From positions 1 through 64,000 of the forward strand of contig JAJPYE010000038.1 of assembly GCA_021205095.1 (NCBI GenBank): a stretch of DNA of 64,000 nt. Reading direction: 5' to 3'. This DNA comes from Oscillospiraceae bacterium (GTDB lineage: Bacteria > Bacillota > Clostridia > Oscillospirales > Oscillospiraceae). A model generated the notes under the pieces. The model had not been told where the DNA came from. It searched no databases and was given only the letters and a program-made list of their open reading frames with translations. The position numbers were made by a program, and so were the translations under genes. Of this stretch, positions 46,242 to 62,775 are shown one piece after another (positions within the stretch are counted from its first letter, which is position 1; each line of letters opens with the position of its first letter).

Positions 46242-47363
46242 TTATGACAAAAGCTCCTGATAGCATTGATCAAAGATTTGTAGAAATTCATTCAGTTCAT
46301 CCTGCGTCGTTAGGTGGCTGAGGCTGATTCGCCAGGAGGACAGGGCAGTTTGGCGATTGCGGCTGACAGCATAGACTGCCTTGGAGACAGTTCCCTCCAC
46401 AGAGCAGGCCGATTTGACGGAAACACATACGCCGCGTCGATCCAACGCCCTCTGGAATGCCGCACCCTTGATGCCCTGAACACTGAGATTGAGGATGTGC
46501 GGAACGGCGTTTGCCGGACTGTTGATAGATACTGCCGGATATTGTGCCAGTGCATCTCTGAGCCGATGGTTCAGCTCCTGCACGTAATGCACTCGCTTTT
46601 CCTGCTGGGTCAGCGCCAGAGAGAGTGCTGTCTCCGTGGACACTGCCAGAGCCAAAGTCGGTGTTCCACTGCGGTAAACAGTCGTGCTGATTCCTCCATG
46701 GATCTGCGGCTCGATGACCAGATCCTTTCTTTTCAGCAGAAGGCCGCTGCCGTTCAGTCCGTAAAATTTATGAGGCGCAATGCTCATAGTATCCACGCCG
46801 TCTGTCACCAGCGCTGTTTTTCCAACAGCCTGCGTAGCGTCCACATGGAGGCGGCAGTTGGGAAAATTCTTCAGCATTTGAGCAATCTCACGAATCGGCT
46901 GCACCGTACCCAGCTCGCTGTCTACCGCGCAGACCGATACCAGAACGGTGTCCTCCCGCAATAGCTCCCGAAGCTGCTCCAGATCTACGGTGCCGTCCCG
47001 ATTGATCCTGACCAGGTCGATCTCGCAGCCTTGCCACTGGAGCGCGGACAGCGTGCCGCTGACGGAGGAATGCTCCAGGGCGGTGGAAATAATGTGCTGC
47101 CCCTGGTGCCGCGATGCCTGCACGATTCCCTTGATGGCCAGGTTGTTTGATTCGCTGGCCCCGGAGGTGTAGATGATTTCGGCGGGGTCAACATCCAGCA
47201 GCGCAGCGATGTGAGCCGTGGCCCGATTCATCTCGTCCAGGGCCTCCCGTCCGGCTGTGTGCGTGGAATTTGGGTTTCCGATATAACGCTGTTCCGTTTG
47301 AATGAATGCATCCAAAACGGCAGGATCCGCCGGCGTGTTGGCGGAATAGTCCAGATAAATCAC
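46242..47363 (-). CDS. NifS/IscS-like cysteine desulfurase (class V aminotransferase)
   Basis: YLDYSANTP, SGASESNN, DATQAVGK, APHKFYG Lys, VSVKSACS catalytic Cys. Confidence 0.88.
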   Translation of the reverse strand: MIYLDYSANTPADPAVLDAFIQTEQRYIGNPNSTHTAGREALDEMNRATAHIAALLDVDPAEIIYTSGASESNNLAIKGIVQASRHQGQHIISTALEHSSVSGTLSALQWQGCEIDLVRINRDGTVDLEQLRELLREDTVLVSVCAVDSELGTVQPIREIAQMLKNFPNCRLHVDATQAVGKTALVTDGVDTMSIAPHKFYGLNGSGLLLKRKDLVIEPQIHGGISTTVYRSGTPTLALAVSTETALSLALTQQEKRVHYVQELNHRLRDALAQYPAVSINSPANAVPHILNLSVQGIKGAAFQRALDRRGVCVSVKSACSVEGTVSKAVYAVSRNRQTALSSWRISLSHLTTQDELNEFLQIFDQCYQELLS

Positions 47364-47382
47364 ATCATACCTCCGCTATCCC

Positions 47383-48159
47383 TCAAAGTGTCAGCCATGG
47401 CCGGAGCGTTCGTTCTCCGCGAGCCTTCTCCAAAGGAAGGTCGAGCAGAAGCATCGTTTCCTCTCCGGCGGCTTTAAAAATCAGCGAGCCGTCCGGCCCG
47501 GCGGCCAGGGACTGACCGGCAAAGTTCATAGCATCCTCCTGTCCCACCCGGTTGCATATCGCGGCGAACACAGTGCTTTGGAAGGCCTGTACCCGTATCT
47601 CCCACTCGAACAGCTCCAGCGGTTCTCCTTCTATGTTGGCGGTGGGCATGATAACCAGCTCCGCTCCTTGCTTTGCGCAGGTTCGGATGCTGTCAGGCAT
47701 ATGCCGGTCAAAGCATATCACTACGCCAACTGTCCCGAAAGGAAGCCGATAGACCGGGAACCCGCCATAGGAGGGCGTGTAATAATCCTGCTCATAGAAA
47801 TACCTGGACTGAGTAATATGAACCATTTTGGAAACGCCCAGGATTTCCCCGTTTGAGTCAATCATCACGGAAGCGTCATAGAGCTGCCCGCCCTGCTGCA
47901 AATACAGATTGGGGCAGGCGCAGATACGGAACGTCCGGCAGGCGTTCCGAATGGCGGTCAGCTCCGGCCCGTCCAGAGTCATGGCCCAGCAATCCGCAGA
48001 CCGCTTTTCATATTGAGGGAAGAATGGCGATAGCTGAAGCTCCGGGAAAAAGATAAGATCTGCCCCGGCCTTTCCCGCCAATTCTATATAGTGCAGCGAT
48101 TTATGCAGGTTTTCCTCTATACTGCTTCCCATCTGCATCTGAGCCATAGCCAACTTCAC
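47383..48159 (-). CDS. Carbon-nitrogen hydrolase (nitrilase superfamily)
   Basis: FPELQLSPF (Glu), K, CFDRHMPD (Cys) triad. Confidence 0.88.
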   Translation of the reverse strand: MKLAMAQMQMGSSIEENLHKSLHYIELAGKAGADLIFFPELQLSPFFPQYEKRSADCWAMTLDGPELTAIRNACRTFRICACPNLYLQQGGQLYDASVMIDSNGEILGVSKMVHITQSRYFYEQDYYTPSYGGFPVYRLPFGTVGVVICFDRHMPDSIRTCAKQGAELVIMPTANIEGEPLELFEWEIRVQAFQSTVFAAICNRVGQEDAMNFAGQSLAAGPDGSLIFKAAGEETMLLLDLPLEKARGERTLRPWLTL

Positions 48160-48199
48160 AGTGTTTCTTCCTTTTTCCTTTTTGAGTTCATCCCGCCTT

Positions 48200-49480
48200 C
48201 TAAGCGGTAACGGTAATCGTGTTTTTCAGCATCCCCATCCAGCAGGAATAGGTATAGGTTCCTTCCTCTTCAGGGGTAAATGTAATCGTCACCTCTCCGG
48301 CGCTCAGCGTGACCTGCTGGTCAAAGGCAGAGAGAATGATCTCCTTGTTGCAGCCGTTCAGCGCGCTTTCCTCCACCTCAATCGTCCATACCACAGGAAT
48401 ACCGGCAACGACCTGAATGTCGTCGTAGCCGTTTGCGTGGAGCGTGGTGGTGACATACTGCGTATCGCCGTCCACCACGGCCTCGATCACATCGCCGCTG
48501 CCGGAGGAAGTACCCGGCAGGGTGAACCCGGTCAGCACCAGGTTATTTTGCACTGTGAATACTCCCATCAGCACCAGCAGGGCTGCTCCGGCTTGGAGCA
48601 TCCGCCGCCGCCATTTCATCTTGAGAAGTCCTGCCGCTGTACCGCACAGGAGTACCAGGGGAATGGTGCCAAGGCAAAAGAAGAACATGGAGGCTGCTCC
48701 GGCGACCAGGCTGCCGCTGGCAATGGCATAAAGCTGCATGGACTGGAGAGGGCCGCAGGGCATCAGACCGTTTACAAGTCCGATTGCATAAGGGCCATGC
48801 GCCCGAAAGGATGCCAGAGCATTGGTCAGTCCTTTGGGGATCCGAAACCGAACCAGTCGGGGCAGAGAAAAGCCACCCATCATGCACACGCTCATCACCA
48901 GCATGAACAGTCCGGCCAGCAGTCCTATCACACCCCGAACCTGGAGTGAAATGGCCGCTTTTTCCCCAATGAAGCCCAGCACAGCGCCGATCAGCGTATA
49001 GCTGGTCAGGCGTCCCAGGTTATAGAGCAGACTGCCCCGCAGGGGATGCTGTCCTTCGCTGCCAAGGCTCTGAGCCATGTTCAGTCCGCCGCACATGGCG
49101 ACACAGTGAACGGAGGTCAAAAGACCGATAAGGAACAGCGCCAAAAAGCTCACCTGCTCCTCGCTTACGGTGGGAAATGCCTGAAAAAGCTCTGTCAGTC
49201 CTAGCTGCCGGGCAATGGCATACAGACCCAGCAGAATGACCAGGAACCAGATCGCATTGCCCTTGCTTTTCGGTCGTGTTACCACGGAATAACCTGCTGA
49301 CTGCACCGCCTGCGTGATCTGCTCCGGGGTGCAGGGCGAGGAAAATTCGGCTTCCAGCAGCCCTTTCTGCCGATCAGCCTGCACAGCGTGTACGCCCTCC
49401 AGTCTGGATACCGCCAGCTCCAGGACGCGTTCGCAACCATCGCAGGTCATTCCTTCAATATGAAAGCTCTGTTTTTCCAT
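48200..49480 (-). CDS. Fusion: N-terminal HMA heavy-metal domain, SafE/UreH-like membrane domain, C-terminal cupredoxin-like domain
   Basis: GMTCDGCE; LTSVHCVAMCGGL; MPCGPLQSMQLYA; C-terminal CNKEII...GTYTYSCWMGML. Confidence 0.82.
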   Translation of the reverse strand: MEKQSFHIEGMTCDGCERVLELAVSRLEGVHAVQADRQKGLLEAEFSSPCTPEQITQAVQSAGYSVVTRPKSKGNAIWFLVILLGLYAIARQLGLTELFQAFPTVSEEQVSFLALFLIGLLTSVHCVAMCGGLNMAQSLGSEGQHPLRGSLLYNLGRLTSYTLIGAVLGFIGEKAAISLQVRGVIGLLAGLFMLVMSVCMMGGFSLPRLVRFRIPKGLTNALASFRAHGPYAIGLVNGLMPCGPLQSMQLYAIASGSLVAGAASMFFFCLGTIPLVLLCGTAAGLLKMKWRRRMLQAGAALLVLMGVFTVQNNLVLTGFTLPGTSSGSGDVIEAVVDGDTQYVTTTLHANGYDDIQVVAGIPVVWTIEVEESALNGCNKEIILSAFDQQVTLSAGEVTITFTPEEEGTYTYSCWMGMLKNTITVTA

Positions 49481-49490
49481 AGCATTATCA

Positions 49491-49991
49491 TCAGAACTGC
49501 TTCCAGTTGACGAACCGGCTGGCATTTTCCTCCAGGAAGGAGGCGGGAACAGTGATGACGCCGTCCGCCTCAGTGTAATCCTCCGCTGTGATGGGGACGG
49601 GGTTGCAGCCGCCGCTTACCACGCCGATGTCAGTGGAGGAGAAGCGGTTCATGCAGTTTTGGCAAATAAAATCGTCCCCTTCCTGCACGAAGTAGGCATA
49701 GGGAGAGCCGTTGCATACCTGACAGGTATTCAGCGCCAGCCGAATCGTACCGTCGGAGGCCAGCACTGCCAGCACCTCCACCGTAACGCCATCCGCGTCA
49801 TAGTCGAAATAGCTGGCCTCCGTGTCAATATCCGCCGTCTGAATGAGCAAATCGCCTTCACTCACAGTGGCGGCGGCTGAGTCTTCATCATCCTGCAAAC
49901 GGGGAAGGAGTACGGCTGCCGCTGCCGCCAGAATCACGAGGACGGCCACGACAGGCAGCAATATATTTTTATGACTTGTCGTTTTTTTCAT
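49491..49991 (-). CDS. DUF2318-like membrane-anchored Cys-rich protein
   Basis: N-terminal TM; CQVCNGSPYAYFVQEGDDFICQNCMNRF. Confidence 0.7.
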   Translation of the reverse strand: MKKTTSHKNILLPVVAVLVILAAAAAVLLPRLQDDEDSAAATVSEGDLLIQTADIDTEASYFDYDADGVTVEVLAVLASDGTIRLALNTCQVCNGSPYAYFVQEGDDFICQNCMNRFSSTDIGVVSGGCNPVPITAEDYTEADGVITVPASFLEENASRFVNWKQF

Positions 49992-51184
49992 GCCAAAACC
50001 TCCAGTTCGCACTGTATCATTGCCTGCCTCAAATCGCCAAGGATGTCATCAATGTCCTCAATGCCGACAGAAAAGCGGAAGAAGCCGTTGTGAAATTCCA
50101 CCGGGTACAGATATTGCCGCTCGTCGTTTTCGCCCAGGAAGACAATCAGGCTCTCATCGTGGCCCAGGGAAACAGCGGAGGTGACGACCTTCAAATGACT
50201 GACAAATCGGTTGTGGGTGTCATGATTCGCCTTTAACCCGAAGGACAGAACACCACCGTAGCCGGGAGACATCTGCCGGGCGGCAACGGCGTGTCCCGGA
50301 TGACTCTCCAGGCCGGGATAGGCTACGAAGCTGACGCAGGGCTGCTTTTCCAGCCAGTGGGCTACCGCCAGGGCGTTTTCGTTGTGCTGCCGCATCCGCA
50401 GAGGGAGAGTAACGCTGCCCCGCATGATGAGCCAGGCGTTGAAGGGACTGATGGTGCCGCCCAGATTGACCTGGGAGACCGCCCGAATCTGATCGAGATG
50501 TGCCTTTTTGCCCACAATAGCGCCACCCATGGCATCACCGTGACCGTTGATATACTTTGTCAGGCTCTCCACAGAGAAATCCGCCCCCAGCTCCACGGGA
50601 CGCTGGTTATAGGGCGAGGCAAAGGTGTTGTCCACGCTGAGCAGCGCTCCATGCCGGTGGGCAATGTCCGCGATGGCGGCAATATCAGAGACGGTAAGGG
50701 TGGGATTGCCCGGCGTTTCGATATGGATGAGCTTGGTGTTGGGGCGGAGGGCTGCCTCCACGTTGGCCGGGTCGGAGGTGTCCACGATGGTGGTCTCCAC
50801 GCCAAATTTATTGTTCAGCAGCTCATGGAGCAGCCGGTAGACGGCAATATAGGTGACGCTGGAAAATATTACATGGTCGCCCTGGTTCAGCAGCGCGAAA
50901 AACAGTCCGCTCAGAGCGGCTACGCCGGATGCCAGTACTACGCAGTCCTCGCCGCCCTCCAGGGAGGCGATCCGCTCTTGGAGATATTTCTGATTGGTGC
51001 CGCCGTTGCGGGTATATAAATTTCCGTCGGCGCTTGACCAGTTCATATCCGTGGGGTCGTATGGCAGGGCATAGCTGTTGGCCATGGTGATGGGGCGCTT
51101 GATAGCGCCGCTGTCCTTATCCGTCCCGTTGCCCACATGAACGGCTCTGGTAGCGAAGCCAGTTGCGTCAAACTCATTCGGCAT
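49988..51184 (-). CDS. Trans-sulfuration PLP-dependent enzyme (cystathionine/O-acetylhomoserine/methionine-gamma-lyase family)
   Basis: ASGVAALSGLF, SVDNTFASPYNQRP, SLTKYINGHGD PLP Lys. Confidence 0.9.
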   Translation of the reverse strand: MPNEFDATGFATRAVHVGNGTDKDSGAIKRPITMANSYALPYDPTDMNWSSADGNLYTRNGGTNQKYLQERIASLEGGEDCVVLASGVAALSGLFFALLNQGDHVIFSSVTYIAVYRLLHELLNNKFGVETTIVDTSDPANVEAALRPNTKLIHIETPGNPTLTVSDIAAIADIAHRHGALLSVDNTFASPYNQRPVELGADFSVESLTKYINGHGDAMGGAIVGKKAHLDQIRAVSQVNLGGTISPFNAWLIMRGSVTLPLRMRQHNENALAVAHWLEKQPCVSFVAYPGLESHPGHAVAARQMSPGYGGVLSFGLKANHDTHNRFVSHLKVVTSAVSLGHDESLIVFLGENDERQYLYPVEFHNGFFRFSVGIEDIDDILGDLRQAMIQCELEVLA

Positions 51185-51211: not shown

Positions 51212-51228
51212 CCTATATGCATACTAGG
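51212..51228. promoter_or_regulatory. Operator-like motif CCTATATGCATACTAGG
   Basis: Imperfect palindrome just downstream of the leftward -10; shared with 51420-51436. Confidence 0.6.
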
Positions 51229-51237
51229 ATAATTGGA

Positions 51238-51266
51238 ATCATAGCACGACGGCACGAGCATGTCAA
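51238..51266 (-). promoter_or_regulatory. Promoter of the leftward sulfur operon
   Basis: Minus strand TTGACA-N17-TATGAT. Confidence 0.85.
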
Positions 51267-51381
51267 GCCGTTTTGTGCATATCAGCACCCGGAAAAGCCT
51301 GTATTCCAGGACATATTTGCCTCCGTCTGCGCTGGCAGAAAATAAAAATCATAAAAACATGGGGATTTAATCAAAAAAAGG

Positions 51382-51410
51382 TTGACAAGACGCTACTTCT
51401 GTGTTAATAT
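51382..51410 (+). promoter_or_regulatory. Promoter of the rightward transporter/nitrogenase-like operon
   Basis: TTGACA-N17-TAATAT. Confidence 0.88.
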
Positions 51411-51419
51411 CCCATTATG

Positions 51420-51436
51420 CCTACAGAAATACTAGG
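51420..51436. promoter_or_regulatory. Operator-like motif CCTACAGAAATACTAGG
   Basis: Same architecture and placement as 51212-51228. Confidence 0.6.
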
Positions 51437-51464: not shown

Positions 51465-51578
51465 ATGTGGAATAAAAACACCTGTTGTTGTGAACGAATG
51501 CTTTGCTCCCGGACTGTTCAAGTGACCGGGCGCTTAAACGCGCCTATATTTCCCCGGCAAATCATATCTGCGGCATAG
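51465..51578 (+). CDS. Poly-cysteine leader peptide MWNKNTCCCERMLCSRTVQVTGRLNAPIFPRQIISAA
   Basis: RBS AAGGAG upstream; TGT TGT TGT tandem Cys codons plus TGC; followed by attenuator hairpins. Confidence 0.75.
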   Translation: MWNKNTCCCERMLCSRTVQVTGRLNAPIFPRQIISAA

Positions 51579-51610
51579 GGATAGCATTACAGTCACTTAC
51601 AGTTCGGGAG
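51506..51610 (+). promoter_or_regulatory. Predicted antiterminator: 51506-51526 pairs with 51592-51610
   Basis: CTCCCGGACTGTTCAAGTGAC versus reverse complement CTCCCGAACTGTAAGTGAC: identical except one G-U and a 2-nt bulge. Confidence 0.75.
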
Positions 51611-51632
51611 CGCAAGCGGCCCGAACTTTTTT
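51601..51632 (+). terminator. Intrinsic terminator (attenuator) AGTTCGGG-AGCGCAAGCGG-CCCGAACT-TTTTT
   Basis: 8-bp perfect stem plus T-run, in the 5' leader of the transporter operon. Confidence 0.88.
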
Positions 51633-51792: not shown

Positions 51793-52911
51793 ATGAAGAT
51801 CAAACAATGGATAGCTGTTCTGCTGGCTGCAGCAGCCTTACTGATTCCGCTGACTGCCTGCGGCAGCTCGAATACAGATACTGCCACATCGAACGAAGAC
51901 GCAGAAACGCAGACTGCCGGTGACAACGCCGCCGCAGCAGAAAGTGATGATGAGACCACCGAAGACGAGGCCGAGGCCACAGAAATCAAGTGGAGCATTA
52001 CCATTCCCGGCGCCAGCGGCTCCCTGTGCAACTCCCCCACCTATCTTGCCTATGAGCTTGGCTATTTTGCGGAGGAAGGGATCGATGCAGAGCTGATCAC
52101 CGCAGACTTCGAGACGAAAAAGGTGGGACTGAATAACGGCACCATCAGCACGGTCAACGGAGACTTCCAGTATTTCCAGTCCATCGAGGCTGGGGTGGGT
52201 ATGACCATCGTAGGCGGTCTGCACCAGGGGTGCATCAAGCTGAACGTTTTGGCGGATTCCGATATTGAGACCGGGGCGGATCTGGAGGGCAAGACCATCG
52301 CCGTGGATGAGATAGGCGGCTCGCCCTATCAGGTGACAGTTTTGTGGCTGGCCCAGTATGGGCTGTCTGTGGATGATGTAAACATTGTGGCCTATAACGA
52401 CAGCTCTTTGGAGATCGAGGCGCTCAAGAGCGGTCAGGTGGACGTGGCCGCCGTGTGGGATCCCATCGCCACGATTTCCACCCAGGACGGCACCGTCCGC
52501 ACCATCTTGGACATTGGCACCGATGAGCCGTTTGCGGGGCATTTCTGCTGCTTCCTGTATGCTTCCACCAAGGTGGTGGAGGAGCAGCCGGAGCTGATCG
52601 CCGCAGAGCTGCGAGCCTATTATAAGGCCCAGAACTGGATCTATGAAAACCCGGAGGAGGCGGTGCGGATCGTCACCGAGAAAGGCTACGTCTCTCTGGA
52701 CGAGGAATACTTTGACATCGCCGTAGAGCTTGTGAAGAGCTACAGCTACCCCTCTACGGAGGCGTATGCAAACGGAGAGTGGGACATCGAAGGCGATATT
52801 GAATATTATGCCCAGGCTCTGTATGACGCGGGCTTTTTGACCACCGACCCGGAGGAATTCGTATCCATTGCCTACACGGAAATAGACCTAACTCTGGGAT
52901 TGGATGACTAA
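51793..52911 (+). CDS. ABC transporter substrate-binding lipoprotein (nitrate/sulfonate/taurine, SsuA/TauA-like)
   Basis: Lipobox LIPLTACGS; 'YLAYELGYFAEEGIDAELI', 'GSPYQVTVLWLAQYGLS'. Confidence 0.85.
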   Translation: MKIKQWIAVLLAAAALLIPLTACGSSNTDTATSNEDAETQTAGDNAAAAESDDETTEDEAEATEIKWSITIPGASGSLCNSPTYLAYELGYFAEEGIDAELITADFETKKVGLNNGTISTVNGDFQYFQSIEAGVGMTIVGGLHQGCIKLNVLADSDIETGADLEGKTIAVDEIGGSPYQVTVLWLAQYGLSVDDVNIVAYNDSSLEIEALKSGQVDVAAVWDPIATISTQDGTVRTILDIGTDEPFAGHFCCFLYASTKVVEEQPELIAAELRAYYKAQNWIYENPEEAVRIVTEKGYVSLDEEYFDIAVELVKSYSYPSTEAYANGEWDIEGDIEYYAQALYDAGFLTTDPEEFVSIAYTEIDLTLGLDD

Positions 52912-53017
52912 AGCATCGGCGCTGTTGCCCGCCGTCTCTCCCTAAAAGGAGGCGGCGGAGCAGCCGATTCTTTGGAAGGGCCTGACTGTTTCCCTGACAA
53001 GAAAGCGAGGGATATTT

Positions 53018-54070
53018 TTGCAAAAAACTCATTCAAACAATTCTGCCCATCACCCAGGAGCCGGGAACCTGACCGGGCAGCAGGTATCGGGAAGACGCCT
53101 GCTGGGGGCGGCAGTCTTTACCGTCTCCGGGTTCGGAATTGCCATTTTGTCTAACTGGCTGCTGCCACAAGTGGCGGAGACAACCAATGCCGTATATGAG
53201 GTGGGAGCTGTTACCCTGACGCGCAACAGCTTTTACAGACTGGTGCTTCTTGGTATCATGCTGATTTACGCCCTGGGCGGCGTGACGGCCTGGTTTAATG
53301 ATTCCCGCAGGCCCCGCTATGTAAAGCAGGCGGCCTTCCGTTTTGCCATGGGTATCGTGCTGGCGGTCTATGACCTGGTAGCGACCAAGCTGGCACTGAC
53401 GCCGCAGCCCTTCTTCCCTGGCCCGGCGGAGATACTGGAATCCTTTTTGTCTGATGGGAGCAATATTTTCAAAAATATGCTGTATTCCCTGCGGCTGTTC
53501 GGGGCGGGCTTTTTGCTGGGGACGCTTTTGGGCGTGTCCACAGGAATCCTGATCGGCTGGTTCCCCAGGGCGTACTACTGGATCTATCCTGTGCTGAAAA
53601 TCACCGGGGTTATTCCGGCGGTGGCCTGGATGCCCTTCGCTCTGACGGTATTCCCCACGGCTTTTTCGGCGGCGGTATTTCTCATTATTATATGCTCCTG
53701 GTTCACGGTGGCGTCTCAAACCAGCTTTGGAATACAGAATACGCCAAAAACGCAGCTTGAGGCGGCGCGAACGTTGGGAGGCAATACATTTTATCTTGTG
53801 TTCCATGTGGCTGTCCCTCAGGCCATGCCCCAGGTATTCACCGGCATTACCACCGCCTGCGCCAGCTCCTTCACCTGCCTGGTAATTGCGGAGATGATGG
53901 GCCAGCCCGGCGGCCTGGGATATTACATAAATATTGCCAAGGTCTGGGCAGCGTACCACAAGGTCTTTGCGGCTATTTTGGTCATGGCGATTTTGTTCAG
54001 CCTGATACTGGCGATCCTGGGCGCGGTGCGAAGCTATGTCCTGCGCTGGCAAAGGGGGCAGTTTAAATGA
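53018..54070 (+). CDS. ABC transporter permease (SsuC/TauC-like)
   Basis: BPD permease motif EAARTLGGNTFYLVFHVAVPQAMP. Confidence 0.88.
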   Translation: MQKTHSNNSAHHPGAGNLTGQQVSGRRLLGAAVFTVSGFGIAILSNWLLPQVAETTNAVYEVGAVTLTRNSFYRLVLLGIMLIYALGGVTAWFNDSRRPRYVKQAAFRFAMGIVLAVYDLVATKLALTPQPFFPGPAEILESFLSDGSNIFKNMLYSLRLFGAGFLLGTLLGVSTGILIGWFPRAYYWIYPVLKITGVIPAVAWMPFALTVFPTAFSAAVFLIIICSWFTVASQTSFGIQNTPKTQLEAARTLGGNTFYLVFHVAVPQAMPQVFTGITTACASSFTCLVIAEMMGQPGGLGYYINIAKVWAAYHKVFAAILVMAILFSLILAILGAVRSYVLRWQRGQFK

Positions 54071-54861
54071 GCGATGTGATATTGGAGCTGAAGGGCATCG
54101 ACCGCATCTATACCGACGGAGACGACCCGGCCACGGCCACGACTGTGGAGGCCCTGCGGAACATTAATTTGCAGATATTCGAGGGGGAGTTTGTCTCCAT
54201 CATCGGCACCTCCGGCTGCGGCAAAACCACTATGCTTCGGCTCATTGGCGGACTGGATCAGCCTCAGGCGGGGCAGGTGCTGCTGCGGGGAAACCCTATC
54301 ACCGGGCCAGACCCGGAACGGGCCTATGTGTTCCAGCAAGGGAGTCTGTTTCCCTGGCTGACGGTGGAGCAGAATATCGCCGCCGGATTAAAGGCCCGCC
54401 ACGTCTATCGTCAGGAGAAGGATAAGATAGCGCAGTATATCCACCTCATCGGGCTGGAGGGCTTTGAAAAAGCTTATCCTCATCAGATCAGCGGCGGCAT
54501 GAATCAGCGGGTGGCCATCGCCAGGGCGCTCATCAATAACCCTGCGGTGCTTCTGATGGATGAACCTATGGGGGCGCTGGATACCTTCACCCGCGCCGAT
54601 TTGCAGGATAAGCTGCTGGAGATCTGGGAGCGGAATAAAACGACCATGATCCTGGTGACGCATGACGTGGACGAGGCCATCTACCTCTCCGACCGCATCG
54701 TCATTATGACGCCAAGGCCGGGAAAAATCAGCGAGGTGCTGCCTGTCAGGCTGCCCCATCCCCGTGACCGCGGCGGCGTGGAGTTCATGAATCTCCGGCG
54801 GGAGATATTGGATCGGTTTCACCTGGCCAGTGCGAACCCCCAGCCGGAATACTTCATTTGA
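54067..54861 (+). CDS. ABC transporter ATP-binding protein (SsuB/TauB-like)
   Basis: [36 protein letters not shown]. Confidence 0.92.
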   Translation: MSDVILELKGIDRIYTDGDDPATATTVEALRNINLQIFEGEFVSIIGTSGCGKTTMLRLIGGLDQPQAGQVLLRGNPITGPDPERAYVFQQGSLFPWLTVEQNIAAGLKARHVYRQEKDKIAQYIHLIGLEGFEKAYPHQISGGMNQRVAIARALINNPAVLLMDEPMGALDTFTRADLQDKLLEIWERNKTTMILVTHDVDEAIYLSDRIVIMTPRPGKISEVLPVRLPHPRDRGGVEFMNLRREILDRFHLASANPQPEYFI

Positions 54862-54888
54862 TATAGATACCAAATTTCCGGCTGGGGG
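54837..54888 (+). other. 13-bp perfect inverted repeat spanning the ATPase stop codon
   Basis: CCCCCAGCCGGAA ... TTCCGGCTGGGGG, 26-nt spacer, no T-run. Confidence 0.7.
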
Positions 54889-54924
54889 TCTGCAAGCCCG
54901 CCGGTCGGAAAAGGAGGTGAGCTT

Positions 54925-55287
54925 TTGGAATATCTTGTGGCGGTCTCCTCCAGCGACGGCACGATGGTGGATACGCATTTTGGGCGGACACGGGCGTTTC
55001 GCATTTTCAACGTGCGGGACAATGGGGCCTATGCACCGGTGGAGACGCGAATCGTTTCCGCGCCCTGCCGGGAGGGGGCACATGACCAGGCGGATATGAC
55101 GGCGGCGGTCAATGCGCTGTCTGACTGCCGGTATGTACTCAGCGCACAGATTGGCCCCGGCGCACAGACAGCGCTGCGGGCGCGGGGCATAACGCCTTTG
55201 GAAGTCACCCATCAGGTGAGCTATGCGCTGGAAAAAGTGATGCTCTACGACAAAAAATTTAAACATGACAAACATGAAAGGGACTAA
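54925..55287 (+). CDS. NifX/NafY-type dinitrogenase iron-molybdenum cofactor-binding domain protein
   Basis: VAVSSSDGTMVDTHFGRTRAFRIFNV...VLSAQIGPGAQTALRARGI. Confidence 0.8.
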   Translation: MEYLVAVSSSDGTMVDTHFGRTRAFRIFNVRDNGAYAPVETRIVSAPCREGAHDQADMTAAVNALSDCRYVLSAQIGPGAQTALRARGITPLEVTHQVSYALEKVMLYDKKFKHDKHERD

Positions 55288-56151
<864 letters not shown>

Positions 56152-56175
56152 ATCTGATAGACAGGAGGAGCATTT

Positions 56176-57114
56176 ATGGCACAGCTTGCACAAAAACTGA
56201 CAGACCTGGTGGGCAACACCCCGCTGCTTCAGCTCAATGCTTACGGCGCGGAAAAGGGCGTAGGCGCGAGACTGATCGCGAAGCTGGAATATTTTAACCC
56301 TGCCGGGAGCGTCAAGGATCGCATCGCGCTGGCGATGATAGAGGATGCGGAGGAGCGGGGGCTGATTGGCCCCGGAACGGTCATTATTGAGCCGACCTCC
56401 GGCAACACCGGCGTGGGGCTGGCCTTCGTGGCCGCCGCCAAGGGGTATCGCTGTATTCTGACCATGCCGGACACCATGAGTGTGGAGCGGCGGAAGCTGC
56501 TGGCCGCGCATCGGGCGGAGCTGGTGCTGACGCCGGGCGCCCAGGGGATGAAGGGCGCGATCCGCAAGGCGGAGGAGCTGGCCGCGCAGTTTCCCAATTC
56601 CTTCATACCGCAGCAGTTCAATAACCCCGCCAACGTGGCGGTGCATAAAAGGACCACGGCCCAGGAGATATTGAGAGATCTGGACGGCCAGGTGGATATT
56701 TTCGTGGCCGGTGTGGGAACCGGCGGCACTGTGACCGGCGTGGGAACGGCGCTGAAGGAGCATGACCCCAGTGCCTATATTGTAGCGGTGGAACCGTTTG
56801 GATCCCCGGTGCTGTCCGGCGGGCGGCCTGGCTCCCATAAGATTCAGGGCATTGGAGCAGGATTCGTCCCAAAAGTATACGATGCGGGCGTGGTGGATGA
56901 GATATTTCGTGTGCGGGACGAGGAGGCGTTTGAAACATCCCAGGATCTCTCCCGGACGGAGGGCTTGCTGGTGGGCATTTCCTCAGGCGCGGCGGTTTTC
57001 GCCGCCACGCAGCTTGCCCGCCGGAAGGAAAATCAGGGAAAGACCGTCGTGGCGCTGCTGCCCGACACCGGGGAGCGTTATCTGTCCACAGCGCTTTATG
57101 ATTGGATCCACTAA
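56176..57114 (+). CDS. cysK: Cysteine synthase A (O-acetylserine sulfhydrylase)
   Basis: [35 protein letters not shown]. Confidence 0.92.
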
Positions 57115-57161
57115 TACTGATTCACGAAAAATATAAGTCGATGCATTGGAGGTATTGCAGC

Positions 57162-57559
57162 ATGAGTATTCAGAAAATTTTGGAGCAGTTTGGCGGCCCG
57201 TTTTTCCTGGCGACCGTGGAGCAAGGGGAGCCCCGCGTCCGGCCTCTTGGACTGATTTTGGAGTATGAGGGCAGGCTTTATTTGGGCCTTGGCAGTCAGA
57301 AGGCAGGCTATCGCCAGCTTTTGGAGCAGCCGGCACTGGAGATTTCCGCTGTGGATGCCAATAAAAACTGGCTTCGTATTCGCGGAGAAGCGGTCTTTGA
57401 TGACAGCCCTGCGGTTTTGGCGGCGGTATATGAAAAATGCCCCACCTGGAGGCCCAGTACAGCGCTCCGGACGGCCCCCGGCTGAAGCCCTTTTACATCA
57501 AAAACGGCGTGGCGGAGATCGCCAGCCTCAGCGGCGAGTTTCAGTCGTTCACTTTTTGA
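57162..57559 (+). pseudogene. Pyridoxamine 5'-phosphate oxidase-like flavin protein, apparent frameshift near 57440-57443
   Basis: Frame ends early at 57485, but adding one C in the C run restores ...YEKCPHLEAQYSAPDGPRLKPFYIKNGVAEIASLSGEFQSFTF*. Confidence 0.7.
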
Positions 57560-57574
57560 TGAGAGGAGCGCACA

Positions 57575-58915
57575 ATGAGCAAATTTGTAGACAGACCCCG
57601 GTATGGGTGCGCCCTGGCCGGTGCCTTGGCCCTGCTGCGGGCTATCCCCAGAACCATCCCTATCATCCACTCCTCCACCGGCTGCGGCTTCAACTGCTAT
57701 AACGGCATCAATCCCGGCGCAGGCTATCTGGGCGGCGGCTACTGCGGCGGAACGGCCACGCCCAGCAGCAATGTGGTGGAGCGTCATGTGGTATTTGGCG
57801 GGGAGGATCGGCTGCGGGAGCAGATTGCCTCCACGCTGGAGGTCATGGACGGCGATTTGTATGTGGTTGTCACCGGCTGTATGGTGGAGATGATCGGCGA
57901 CGACGTGCAGTCCGTGGCACAGGAGTTTCAGGATGAAGGCCAGCCGGTCATTGCGGTCAATACCCCCAGCTTTCAGGGAAATTCCTACTATGGTTATGAG
58001 CTTCTGTTTTCCGCCTTGGCGCAGGAGATTGTAAGAAAAACGGAGACGAAGAACCCTAAAAAGGTCAATGTGCTGGGACTGGTACCAGGTCAGGACGTGT
58101 TTTACAAGGGTAATCTCCGGGAGATAAAACGACTTCTGACTGACATTGGTCTGGAGGTCAATACCTTCGTGGGCGAGGGAGAAACGCTGGACAGCTTCAA
58201 AAACGCCGGAGATGCGGCGCTGAACATTGTCCTGTCCGATGTTCATGGGGTCAAGACCGCCCAGGTGTTCCAGCAGGTACACGGCATACCTTATATCACC
58301 ACAGGACTTCCTATTGGCTACTTCCAGACGGCGGACTTTCTCTACCAGGTGGCGGAACAGACCGGCGTAGAAAAATCCGCAGTGGATGCGGTTCTGGAGA
58401 GAGAGCGGGGCGTGTATTTCGATTATTTCGAGCGCGTTGCCGATATTTACAATGACATTGATATGCAGCGCTACGCGGTCATCGTGGCCGACTCCAACTA
58501 CGCTCCGGCGCTGAGCCGATTTGTGGCGGATGAGCTTGGGTGGCTGCCGGAGCTGGCGGTCATAACGGATTTTCTGGAGGAACATCATAAAACCGCGCTG
58601 GAAAAACGCTTTGACGGCTGGGAATCCGGCCTGCGGCCTGCGGTGCGGTTCGACACGGACGCGTCCTCCGTCCGACAGTATCTGGGCGAGCTGTGGCCCA
58701 GAGACCGCAACACCCGGTATTACGATGCCCTTGACCCTGGCTTTATCCTGGGGAGCGTTGTAGAACGGGAGCTTTCGGATGAATTTAATTTCCCGCTACT
58801 GCCTGTGGCGTTCCCTGTGACAAATCGGGTCATTTTTAACCGGGGCTACGCGGGCATACGAGGCGGTCTGACGCTGACCGAGGACATTTTTGGCGTTTTG
58901 GTAACGGCCAGATAA
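57575..58915 (+). CDS. Nitrogenase component 1 family, NifK-like (beta) subunit
   Basis: RYGCALAGALA...HSSTGCGFNCY; VVFGGEDRLREQI; TGCMVEMIGDDV: three P-cluster-type Cys with NifK-like spacing. Confidence 0.88.
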   Translation: MSKFVDRPRYGCALAGALALLRAIPRTIPIIHSSTGCGFNCYNGINPGAGYLGGGYCGGTATPSSNVVERHVVFGGEDRLREQIASTLEVMDGDLYVVVTGCMVEMIGDDVQSVAQEFQDEGQPVIAVNTPSFQGNSYYGYELLFSALAQEIVRKTETKNPKKVNVLGLVPGQDVFYKGNLREIKRLLTDIGLEVNTFVGEGETLDSFKNAGDAALNIVLSDVHGVKTAQVFQQVHGIPYITTGLPIGYFQTADFLYQVAEQTGVEKSAVDAVLERERGVYFDYFERVADIYNDIDMQRYAVIVADSNYAPALSRFVADELGWLPELAVITDFLEEHHKTALEKRFDGWESGLRPAVRFDTDASSVRQYLGELWPRDRNTRYYDALDPGFILGSVVERELSDEFNFPLLPVAFPVTNRVIFNRGYAGIRGGLTLTEDIFGVLVTAR

Positions 58916-58928
58916 GGAGGAGTGTATC

Positions 58929-60434
58929 GTGAACCATACTATAGAGACCTCTGCCCCCGCGAGAGAGGAGCGGCTTCATGCCGGTATTGCCTTCGGTGGC
59001 ACCTGCGGAGAGCTGAAATGCAGTCTGAACCAGGGCGGCACCTGCCTGAGCGCCTCCAACCGCTCGTTTACGGAGACCTATGGGTGTCAATTCACCCTGA
59101 GCCTGGGCATTTTAAACACGCTGCGAAACGCTGTTGTCATCATGCACGGCCCTATTGGATGCGGCTTCTGCTCCACCAACACCATCGGCACGGGCAAAAG
59201 CTATAAGCGTCTGCGGGATCCCAATGCAGCGGGAACCATCTGGCTCAGCTCCAACATGGATGAAAACGACGTGATTGGCGGCGGCGAGGCGAAGCTGAAG
59301 GCGGCCGTTCTGTTTGCCGATCGGGAATACAGGCCGGAGATCATCGTGGTGGTCAGCTCCTGCGTTCCGGCTCTGATTGGGGACGATGTGGACACCATTC
59401 TGGAAAACTTGCAGGGAGATACCGCCGCCACTTTGGTGGCTTGCAACTGCGAGGGCTTTAAAACCAAGGTCATGGCCACTGCCTATGACGCAGCCTATAA
59501 CGGCATTATGAAAAGCGTCACCGAACCCTATGGCGAGTGGCGTCCCCTGACAGAGAGCGACCAGGACAAGGCGGATCGGGAATATCGCATCAGCCGGACA
59601 GTAAACGTGTTTAACGTCGGGTCTATGAGCCGGACGGATGAGCTGGAGCTGCAAAGACTGCTGAACGCGCTGGATCTGAACGTGAACTTCCTCCCCTGCT
59701 ATTCCGCGCCGGACGATTTTAAAACCAGCCTGGAGGCGGCGCTGAATGTTTCCATCTGCGGAACGCATGATGATTATTATCTGAAATACCTGAAGGAGAA
59801 CTTTGGTATCCCCTATCTGATCGACACCATACCCATTGGCAAAAAGAATATTGCCCGCTGGCTGCGGAAAGTCGCCGCGTTTTTCCATGAGGAGGAGAGG
59901 GCTGAGGCTCTGATCGCCATCGAGGAGACGGCGCTGGAGGAGGGGCTGGCGCCCTTCCGGGAGGAGCTGAAGGGCAAGCGGGTCTATATCGGCGGCGGGG
60001 AGGTGCGTGTGCTGGCAACTGCGTCCATCGCACAGGATCTTGGGATGGAGATTGTGGGCCTGAAGGGCCACCATGCCGACGAATTTCTGCTGCCGCTGTT
60101 TGAAACGCTGGAGGACGCGGAAAATATTCCCATTAACATCGCCACACAGCACCCCTTTGAGCAGGCGAACATCATTCAGCGGGTCAAGCCGGACGCGATC
60201 ATCATTCATACCGGCGGCAACAGCATTTCTGCCAAGCACGGTCTGCCGCTGCTGCCTCTGTTCAGCGCGTCCATCAACTATCTTGGCTACTCAGGAGAAT
60301 ATGAAATGGCCCGCCGCCTGAACCGCATTATGAAAAATCCCTCTCTGAACCGACACCTGAGCCAGAATTGCCCTAAGCCCTTTAAGCAGAGCTGGTATCA
60401 GGAAGATCCGTTCAAATATATCAAGGAAGGATAA
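58929..60434 (+). CDS. Nitrogenase component 1 family, NifD-like (alpha) subunit
   Basis: YGCQF..HGPIGCGF, DENDVIGGGEAKL, SSCVPALIGDDVD, NCEGF, SICGTHDDYYLKYLKENFGIPYL, VYIGGGEVRVL. Confidence 0.88.
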   Translation: MNHTIETSAPAREERLHAGIAFGGTCGELKCSLNQGGTCLSASNRSFTETYGCQFTLSLGILNTLRNAVVIMHGPIGCGFCSTNTIGTGKSYKRLRDPNAAGTIWLSSNMDENDVIGGGEAKLKAAVLFADREYRPEIIVVVSSCVPALIGDDVDTILENLQGDTAATLVACNCEGFKTKVMATAYDAAYNGIMKSVTEPYGEWRPLTESDQDKADREYRISRTVNVFNVGSMSRTDELELQRLLNALDLNVNFLPCYSAPDDFKTSLEAALNVSICGTHDDYYLKYLKENFGIPYLIDTIPIGKKNIARWLRKVAAFFHEEERAEALIAIEETALEEGLAPFREELKGKRVYIGGGEVRVLATASIAQDLGMEIVGLKGHHADEFLLPLFETLEDAENIPINIATQHPFEQANIIQRVKPDAIIIHTGGNSISAKHGLPLLPLFSASINYLGYSGEYEMARRLNRIMKNPSLNRHLSQNCPKPFKQSWYQEDPFKYIKEG

Positions 60435-60442
60435 TTTTTGCC

Positions 60443-61597
60443 ATGTCCAGAGAGCTTGAAACGCGATGTATTCATGGAGGCGGGCATCTAGGCGTTACCG
60501 ACAGCACCCGTGCCGTCAGCTTCCCTATCTATCAGACCGCTACCTTCGGTCATGTGGGGCTGGGACAGTCCAGCGGCTATGATTACACACGAGAGGGTAA
60601 TCCGACCCGGCAGCGGCTGGAGGAGACGGTCTCGTCCCTGGAGGGGGCATGGGACACCGTGGCCCTCTCCTCCGGGATGACAGCAATCAGCGTCTGCTTC
60701 GAGCTGTTTCAGCCGGGAGATCATATCATCTGCTCGGAGGATCTGTATGGCGGCGCGGTACGCCTGTTTCAAACTGTCAGCCGGAAGAACGGTCTTTCCG
60801 TCAGCTATGCAGACACGTCGAATATGGAGCAGGTACGCGCCCAGCTACGCCCAGAGACCAGGGCGCTCTATATCGAGACGCCCAGCAATCCTATGATGAA
60901 CATCACAGACCTGCGCGAATGTGCGGCACTGGCGAAAGAGCGGGGCCTGCTGCTGATTGTGGACAACACGTTCCTCTCACCCTGGCTGCAAAATCCCATT
61001 GCCCTGGGAGCCGATCTGGTGCTTCACAGCGGCAGCAAATTCCTGAGCGGACACAACGATACCATTGCCGGCTTTCTGTCCTCGGCCAGCCGGGAGCTGG
61101 CCGAACGGATCCGTCTTATTGCCAAGACCACCGGCGGAATGCTGGCGCCCTTCGATAGCTGGCTGGTGCTGCGAGGCATCAAGACACTACCTGTACGAAT
61201 GGAACGCCAGCAGGAAAGCGCGAAGAGGATTGCCCTGTGGCTGTCTCAGCAGCCGCAGGTTCAGCAGGTATTCTATGCCGGCCTGCCGGAGCATCCCGGT
61301 TACGAGGTCAATCGCACCCAGGCCAGAGGGGCAGGCAGTACACTCTCCTTTCGAACGGACAGTGTTGAAACGGCCCATCGGATCCTTCAAAAGGTGAAGC
61401 TCATCACCTTTGCGGAGAGTCTGGGCGGGACGGAGACGCTGATTACCTACCCTGTGACGCAGACCCACGCAGACGTTCCGCCCACCATGCGGGAACACTT
61501 GGGCATCACAGAGACTCTGCTTCGTCTGTCTGTTGGTTTGGAGCATGTCAATGACATCATCGAGGATCTGCGTCAGGCTATGGAGGAACAGGCGTGA
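60443..61597 (+). CDS. Trans-sulfuration PLP-dependent enzyme (cystathionine gamma-synthase/O-acetylhomoserine sulfhydrylase family)
   Basis: YDYTREGNPTRQRLEE, LHSGSKFLSGHND PLP Lys. Confidence 0.9.
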   Translation: MSRELETRCIHGGGHLGVTDSTRAVSFPIYQTATFGHVGLGQSSGYDYTREGNPTRQRLEETVSSLEGAWDTVALSSGMTAISVCFELFQPGDHIICSEDLYGGAVRLFQTVSRKNGLSVSYADTSNMEQVRAQLRPETRALYIETPSNPMMNITDLRECAALAKERGLLLIVDNTFLSPWLQNPIALGADLVLHSGSKFLSGHNDTIAGFLSSASRELAERIRLIAKTTGGMLAPFDSWLVLRGIKTLPVRMERQQESAKRIALWLSQQPQVQQVFYAGLPEHPGYEVNRTQARGAGSTLSFRTDSVETAHRILQKVKLITFAESLGGTETLITYPVTQTHADVPPTMREHLGITETLLRLSVGLEHVNDIIEDLRQAMEEQA

Positions 61598-62775
61598 AAT
61601 ACTACGATTTTGACCGGCAGATCGAACGCCGGGGTACCAACAGTCTGAAATATGACTTTGCGGAGGAGCGGGGGCGGCCATCGGATGCGCTTCCGCTCTG
61701 GGTGGCCGACATGGATTTTCAGGCCCCGGAGCCGGTGTTGGACGCACTGAGAAAGGCTGTGGAGCATGGGATTTTCGGCTACAGTGAGACGAAGGAGGAC
61801 TACACGCAGACCGTGGCCTCCTGGTTCCGAGAGCGATTCGGTTGGGAAACCCACCCGGAATGGCTGGTCAAGACGCCCGGTGTTGTCTTTGCCTTGGCTA
61901 TGGCGGTGCGGGCGCTGACCTGTCCCGGCGACGGGGTGCTGATTCAAACGCCGGTCTATTATCCTTTTTTCAGCGTGATTCGGGACAACGGACGAAAGGT
62001 GGTCGAGAACCGGCTTCGCTATATCCAGGGCCGGTATACCATTGATTTTGAGGATTTTGAGCACCAGATTAAGGATAATCGGGTAACGCTCTTTCTCCTG
62101 TGCAGTCCTCACAACCCGGTGGGCCGCGTATGGACGCAGGATGAGCTGAGGCAAATGGGACGCATCTGCGAGCGATATGGAGTTTATGTGGTCTCTGATG
62201 AGATTCACTGCGACTTTGCTTTCCCGGAGCATCCTCACCACATCTTTCCGAACGCTGTTCCGTCAATGGAGGGACGCACCATCGTCTGCACCGCCGCCAG
62301 CAAATCCTTTAATCTGGCGGGATTACAGGTGTCGAATATTTGGATACCAAATGAGTGGATCCGCCGACGGTTTGTCCGGGAGATAGACAAATGCGGTTAT
62401 TCCCAGCTTAATCAGTTGGGACTGGTAGCGACCCAGGCGGCCTACACTGGCGGCAGCGAATGGCTAGAGCAGTGTAAAACCTATCTGCGGCACAATCTGG
62501 ACTTTCTGCGGGCATTTTTGACAGAGCGCATCCCTCAAATCCGATTGGTGGAGCCGGAGGGAACCTATTTCGCCTGGCTGGATTGCTCCGGGCTGAAGTT
62601 GAGCAGCAGAGAATTGGATGATCTGATTCTCCACCGTGCAAAGCTGTGGCTGGATCCGGGAGCCATGTTCGGTGGCGGTGCGGAGCAGTTTCAGCGCGTC
62701 GTCCTGGCTTGTCCCCGGAAGACATTGGAGACAGCTTTGGAACGGTTGGCAACAGCGGTGCAGAGTTTGCCTTGA
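61594..62775 (+). CDS. MalY/PatB-type PLP-dependent C-S lyase
   Basis: LPLWVADMDFQAPEPVLDAL, CSPHNPVGRVW, TAASKSFNLAGLQ. Confidence 0.9.
   Translation: MKYYDFDRQIERRGTNSLKYDFAEERGRPSDALPLWVADMDFQAPEPVLDALRKAVEHGIFGYSETKEDYTQTVASWFRERFGWETHPEWLVKTPGVVFALAMAVRALTCPGDGVLIQTPVYYPFFSVIRDNGRKVVENRLRYIQGRYTIDFEDFEHQIKDNRVTLFLLCSPHNPVGRVWTQDELRQMGRICERYGVYVVSDEIHCDFAFPEHPHHIFPNAVPSMEGRTIVCTAASKSFNLAGLQVSNIWIPNEWIRRRFVREIDKCGYSQLNQLGLVATQAAYTGGSEWLEQCKTYLRHNLDFLRAFLTERIPQIRLVEPEGTYFAWLDCSGLKLSSRELDDLILHRAKLWLDPGAMFGGGAEQFQRVVLACPRKTLETALERLATAVQSLP

Follow-up and report, generated by a model that had tools for sequence, protein, structure and literature searches.

The window, a stretch of 64,000 nucleotides (positions 1-64,000 of the forward strand of contig JAJPYE010000038.1, assembly GCA_021205095.1) from an Oscillospiraceae bacterium (GTDB lineage Bacteria; Bacillota; Clostridia; Oscillospirales; Oscillospiraceae), contains two divergent sulfur operons. 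The leftward operon (46242-51184, minus strand) encodes a Cys/Met PLP enzyme (49988-51184), an FtrD-like protein, a DsbD/HMA membrane protein, a nitrilase-type hydrolase and a class-V aminotransferase resembling cysteine desulfurases. The rightward operon (51793-62775, plus strand) begins with an SsuA/TauA-like binding protein, a permease and an ATPase, which together are SsuABC-like, followed by NifX-like and NifH-like proteins and CysK, and continues to 62775 with a NifK/MarK-like subunit (57575-58915), a NifD/MarD-like subunit (58929-60434), a cystathionine-lyase-type enzyme and a MalY-like aminotransferase. The best solved relatives of its component-1 subunits (NifK/NifD-like) are 9d9u/9fmg (E 4e-77 and 5e-50), of which 9FMG is a methylthio-alkane reductase (PMC12552129), and the operon appears to encode an enzyme of that kind. 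It also has its own CysK and two PLP enzymes of the cystathionine type and, judged by its operators, the MarDKH-like locus occurs in 6 of the 35 genomes of the genus. The evidence throughout is comparative sequence analysis, with these 35 genomes for the genus comparison and the 2.34 Mb genome itself for motif scans.

A first-pass annotation of this DNA had described twin 17-mers with an identical CCTA-N5-ATACTAGG frame, each about nine nucleotides past the -10 element of a near-consensus promoter and covering its start. The twin sites are real. The left dyad (CCTATATGCATACTAGG, 51212-51228) and the right dyad (CCTACAGAAATACTAGG, 51420-51436), both predicted operators, are present exactly as described, and so are the promoters: TTGACA-N17-TATGAT leftward (51238-51266, minus strand, 11/12 consensus match) and TTGACA-N17-TAATAT rightward (51382-51410, plus strand, 10/12). 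TG precedes the -10 in both, and the region holds four promoter-like sites versus 1.1 in shuffles. On both sides the dyad begins after a gap of nine bases from the -10 and thereby spans the expected start point.

The annotation's reading hung on conservation upstream of orthologous operons and on the motif not being scattered at random through the genome, and both were found. Exact CCTA-N5-ATACTAGG occurs in the whole genome only at the two twin sites and, across the 35 genomes of the genus, in ten copies, all of them at the twin locus of six genomes. The left site is kept in six genomes of the genus, and both sites persist in the sister species G217, G301 and G303, where every specified base is unchanged. 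Differences between species are confined to the unspecified bases (TATGC/TATAC on the left, CAGAA/CGGAA on the right), with the exception of G302, whose right site is CCTACAGAAATACAAGG, one mismatch away; the G095 contig breaks off or is rearranged ahead of the right site.

The shared frame is exact in both twins, but its ATAC is absent from the other sites in the genome, and the conserved element is best written as the inverted repeat CCTA-N9-TAGG. With two mismatches allowed, the first pattern gave about 25 scattered genome matches and was uninformative until cut to this form. Written so, the dyad occurs five times in 2.34 Mb: four times on promoters, at the twin sites, at C22:8664 (isc promoter) and at C24:12824 (ABC transporter promoter), and once at C27:51334. 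The isc dyad (CCTATTGACTTTATAGG, C22:8664-8680) wraps the -35 of its promoter, and the C24 dyad lies directly 3' of TTGACA-N17-TATAAT in front of an ABC transporter of the oligopeptide type (SBP_bac_5). The C27 copy is inside coding sequence and was taken as chance. Taking promoter core to make up about 3% of the genome, which is my own estimate, four of five copies would fall on promoters by chance with P near 4e-6. A looser, TTGA-containing dyad was also tried in this genome and set aside; besides isc, it found only coding or unconvincing sites.

What protein might bind these dyads? The first-pass annotation had suggested an Rrf2-family (CymR/IscR-like) regulator encoded elsewhere, in charge of a sulfur/FeS repressor regulon joining the divergent operons, and comparison supports both suggestions. 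The genome has a single Rrf2-family gene (C22:12111-12500; PF02082, E 2.8e-40), the last in the operon iscS-iscU-mnmA-HD-Rrf2, and it is this operon whose promoter bears the third dyad. Across the genus the isc-promoter dyad is retained as CC(T/C)ATTGACAGACTAGG and variants, including in species that do not have the twin locus. The solved structures closest to the protein are 4cic, a BadM/Rrf2 regulator from Thermincola, and B. subtilis CymR 2y75 (E 8e-24). After its winged helix the protein carries a cysteine cluster of the IscR kind (APVECLDESPNQCEHCATCS, L027), and an APVACL...C...C pattern is likewise present in the linked Rrf2 proteins described below. CymR is marked by the absence of Fe-S cysteine ligands, whereas this genome's Rrf2 has the cluster, and an Fe-S-sensing mode is therefore more likely for it than CymR's mode of partnering with CysK. 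Thus, because the dyad sits on the Rrf2 protein's own isc operon and on sulfur-gene promoters across Clostridia, some of them adjoined by Rrf2 genes, this Rrf2 is the best candidate for the regulator of the dyads.

The earlier control scheme kept its dyad layer but had missed a second one, since the rightward transcript probably contains a cysteine attenuator (51465-51632) that would raise transcription on cysteine shortage. Its 37-codon leader ORF (51465-51578, plus strand) follows a GGAG-type ribosome-binding site, encodes MWNKNTCCCERMLCSRTVQVTGRLNAPIFPRQIISAA and is near-identical in four sister species. Three tandem Cys codons, TGT TGT TGT (51483-51491), are the predicted control codons, the last of them six codons before the antiterminator 5' arm CTCCCGGACTGTTCAAGTGAC (51506-51526), which lies within the ORF. 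The 3' arm GTCACTTACAGTTCGGGAG (51592-51610) overlaps the 5' arm of a predicted intrinsic terminator, GTTCGGGAGCGCAAGCGGCCCGAAC-TTTTTT (51602-51632), so the two predicted structures are mutually exclusive. A simple terminator scan of the region did not list the 51602-51632 terminator. Thus, with translation presumed and structures predicted, the leader has what defines an attenuator, namely a short ORF with tandem control codons and an antiterminator and terminator that exclude each other. T-box control of the locus was considered and rejected, since a covariance-model search there gave no T-box match at E up to 5; T-box-like elements do occur elsewhere in the genome. A search of the locus against Rfam returned nothing real, the same search at ten related leader loci gave no match at the leader element, and no NCBIfam family covers the leader peptide.

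The leader is not peculiar to this operon. A DNA pattern for its arms and terminator matched 20 of 401 genomes of the family, in 10 genera, while the reversed pattern had no match. In GTDB representative genomes at least 119 stretches match, and 99 of the 119 among the matches listed code for leader peptides of the C-R-M..S-R type; most of them come from Lachnospiraceae, Oscillospiraceae and other Clostridia. An O-acetylhomoserine-sulfhydrylase-like gene lies downstream of at least 52 leaders; others head cysE, cysK-like, MetQ/NlpA, family-3 binding protein and ABC-transporter genes, and a few head genes that are not obviously sulfur-related. Two loci (L202:794-2128 and L193) have a Cys leader of the family before an iron-type alcohol dehydrogenase gene. 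Nearer to the window, homologous leaders precede a family-3 binding protein in the same genus (G258, G316) and an O-acetylhomoserine-sulfhydrylase-like gene in another genus of the family (G156, G211), and G161, from another genus, has a leader with a related dyad 3.4 kb upstream of its orthologue of the binding protein. In G316 (L099:1550-1780) the dyad promoter and the start of the leader are separated by about 230 bases that include several palindrome-rich stretches and are absent in relatives.

The architecture of the family fits what attenuation requires. Among the matches listed, the last Cys codon stands five or six codons before the antiterminator-arm TCC in 83 of 91 distinct leaders, a fixed distance, as would suit a ribosome that stalls on these codons and just leaves the arm free; the Cys codons are TGT 149 times and TGC 24 times. 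Covariation in the inner antiterminator helix is modest, the native partner beating mismatched ones in 52 of 91 leaders (P = 0.002, among the matches listed), and part of the conservation of the antiterminator could come from coding constraint or ancestry. In a single case, the leader MTFRNTMMMRMLFSR before a MetQ gene (G031, L113:1440-1616), ATG-ATG-ATG replaces the Cys codons. Such a swap is the change that attenuation predicts, and it suggests an apparent change of control amino acid from cysteine to methionine. The C24 transporter of the genome studied here (L054:4500-4890) has a perfect TTGACA-N17-TATAAT with the dyad next to it, a leader ORF containing both Cys and Met codons (MIGAAGERICMHMCQDIAVTMSPSRH...) and a terminator; the Cys codons are off the family spacing, so this leader is a candidate member only.

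Dyad and leader travel together. Although the leader loci are related by descent, so that counts are not independent and the enrichment exaggerates how many separate events there were, exact CCTA-N9-TAGG occurs in 54 of 97 leader-bearing upstream regions versus 0.07 expected from dinucleotide shuffles, and a one-mismatch dyad in 17 more versus 2.15 expected (both among the matches listed). The typical leader-promoter dyad is CCTATTGACATAGTAGG, with the -35 TTGACA inside it. The window's twin sites thus appear to be a positional variant, lying past the -10 where most related dyads wrap the -35, and in G153 and G208 a dyad of the CCTA/CCCA type also directly follows the -10. Of the 99 leader stretches (688 kb) among the matches listed, 20 contain Rrf2 genes, which were sought by regular expression with a positive control; about one would be expected at two to three Rrf2 genes per genome. 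Seven of the 20 are divergent within about 350 bp, and in G110 and G265 Rrf2 and the cysE leader flank the dyad. Most bacteria have Rrf2, which was present in 20 of 20 genomes tested; its linkage to the dyad is statistical and positional.

The reading that I favour, with a probability of about 0.75, is that the twin dyads are operators of the isc-operon Rrf2, which would repress both divergent operons as well as isc, with the cysteine attenuator as a second tier on the rightward side. When the supply of sulfur and Fe-S is sufficient, an Rrf2 dimer on each CCTA-N9-TAGG over the start would block RNA polymerase, so that both operons would be silenced together and the regulator's own isc operon would also be repressed. 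A fall in this supply would lift the repression. On the rightward transcript, the ribosome translating the leader would then pause at TGT-TGT-TGT only when Cys-tRNA is short; a paused ribosome would leave 51506-51526 free to pair with 51592-51610, preventing the 51602-51626 terminator, and the operon would be transcribed. With cysteine present, the ribosome would instead cover the 51506-51526 arm and the terminator would form.

Could the dyads be bound by a different regulator, such as a LysR, MarR or other winged-helix protein, with Rrf2 nearby only as a fellow gene of a sulfur island? The usual position of the dyad, around the -35 in most species, does not by itself identify the binding protein. 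However, the promoter of the operon that houses this genome's only Rrf2 gene bears the dyad, isc promoters of the genus keep it in species that lack the twin locus as well, and in several Clostridia Rrf2 is divergent from dyad promoters, including across the dyad from cysE. Together these make a different regulator unlikely.

A second alternative is that the attenuator alone controls and that the dyads are promoter-associated sequence, an extended -35/-10 context to which no repressor binds. In its favour, the leader and terminator of the rightward operon are complete, and the -35 TTGACA lies inside many related dyads. Yet the leftward operon has a dyad although a leader would not fit in front of it, the expected start point and the start codon (51184) being some 45 nucleotides apart; the window's dyads lie 3' of the -10, where promoter sequence is not needed; and the half-sites are retained while the N9 varies. 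I regard control by the attenuator alone as improbable, more so than binding by another protein. Finally, the resemblance of the twins could be put down to chance, given that the motif is short and that matches with up to three mismatches are no commoner in the window than in shuffles. Against this stand exact matches confined to the twin locus in 35 genomes, the four promoter sites among the genome's five dyads, and the exact dyad at 54 of 97 related promoters among the matches listed; chance is in practice refuted.

Repression by the isc-operon Rrf2 coupled to cysteine attenuation would connect a defined, predicted regulon of gut Clostridia with an enzyme family whose members free sulfur from methylated thioethers, and short DNA targets are now defined for an Rrf2 protein. 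The predicted cysteine attenuator is widespread in Clostridia, a group in which T-boxes and CymR-type repressors are the usual explanation of cysteine control, and it has no Rfam entry; its leader family would be a way to spot cysteine-limited genes in many uncultured gut bacteria. As kinds of regulation, both Rrf2 control of sulfur genes and leader-peptide attenuation are already known. In the literature searched, coverage of which was incomplete, neither the leader nor its combination with an Rrf2-type dyad was found described. On balance, I lean towards a Clostridia-wide and apparently undescribed two-tier switch, in which an IscR-like Rrf2 dyad and a C-R-M..S-R attenuator reading the charging of Cys tRNA (once Met tRNA) would control cysteine and methionine acquisition, here through the MarDKH-like operon of gut bacteria.

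Cysteine control in Clostridia has been described via T-boxes and CymR/IscR-like proteins (PMC2940859, PMC3828012). The predicted regulon resembles that of CymR in Bacillus and Staphylococcus, an Rrf2-family repressor of cysteine metabolism that controls, among others, sulfonate uptake and enzymes of the CysK and cystathionine types. The rightward operon even encodes CysK, the kind of protein that is the partner of CymR in B. subtilis (cited in PMC3828012, PMC2940859). However, BsCymR binds no Fe-S cluster (PMC9338935), whereas the Rrf2 here has the cysteine cluster, a location in the isc operon and CCTA-N9-TAGG as its predicted dyad. In its clustered cysteines, and in being encoded in and predicted to control an isc operon, it resembles IscR of E. 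coli and Thermincola potens, although its predicted targets also take in the uptake of sulfur compounds and a nitrogenase-like enzyme. The predicted enzyme itself is like MarDKH in having NifD-, NifK- and NifH-like subunits in one operon, with 9d9u/9fmg as best solved relatives; it differs in its Clostridia-type host and in being encoded beside an SsuABC-like transporter, CysK and cystathionine enzymes.

For the second tier, the cysteine T-box of Clostridia also reads Cys-tRNA charging and controls termination before cysteine genes (PMC2940859), as the leader here presumably does, but the window locus has no T-box match. Comparable in design are two kinds of Cys leader. Short leader ORFs of Actinobacteria carry Cys codons in runs and precede cysteine genes, those of mycobacteria without an intrinsic terminator (PMC1262725), and uORFC-8-2, before cysS of Rhodobacterales, also has an intrinsic terminator (PMC8632094). 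The Clostridia family differs from these in its C-R-M..S-R peptide, its RNA, its host group and its targets, and in being coupled to a predicted dyad operator.
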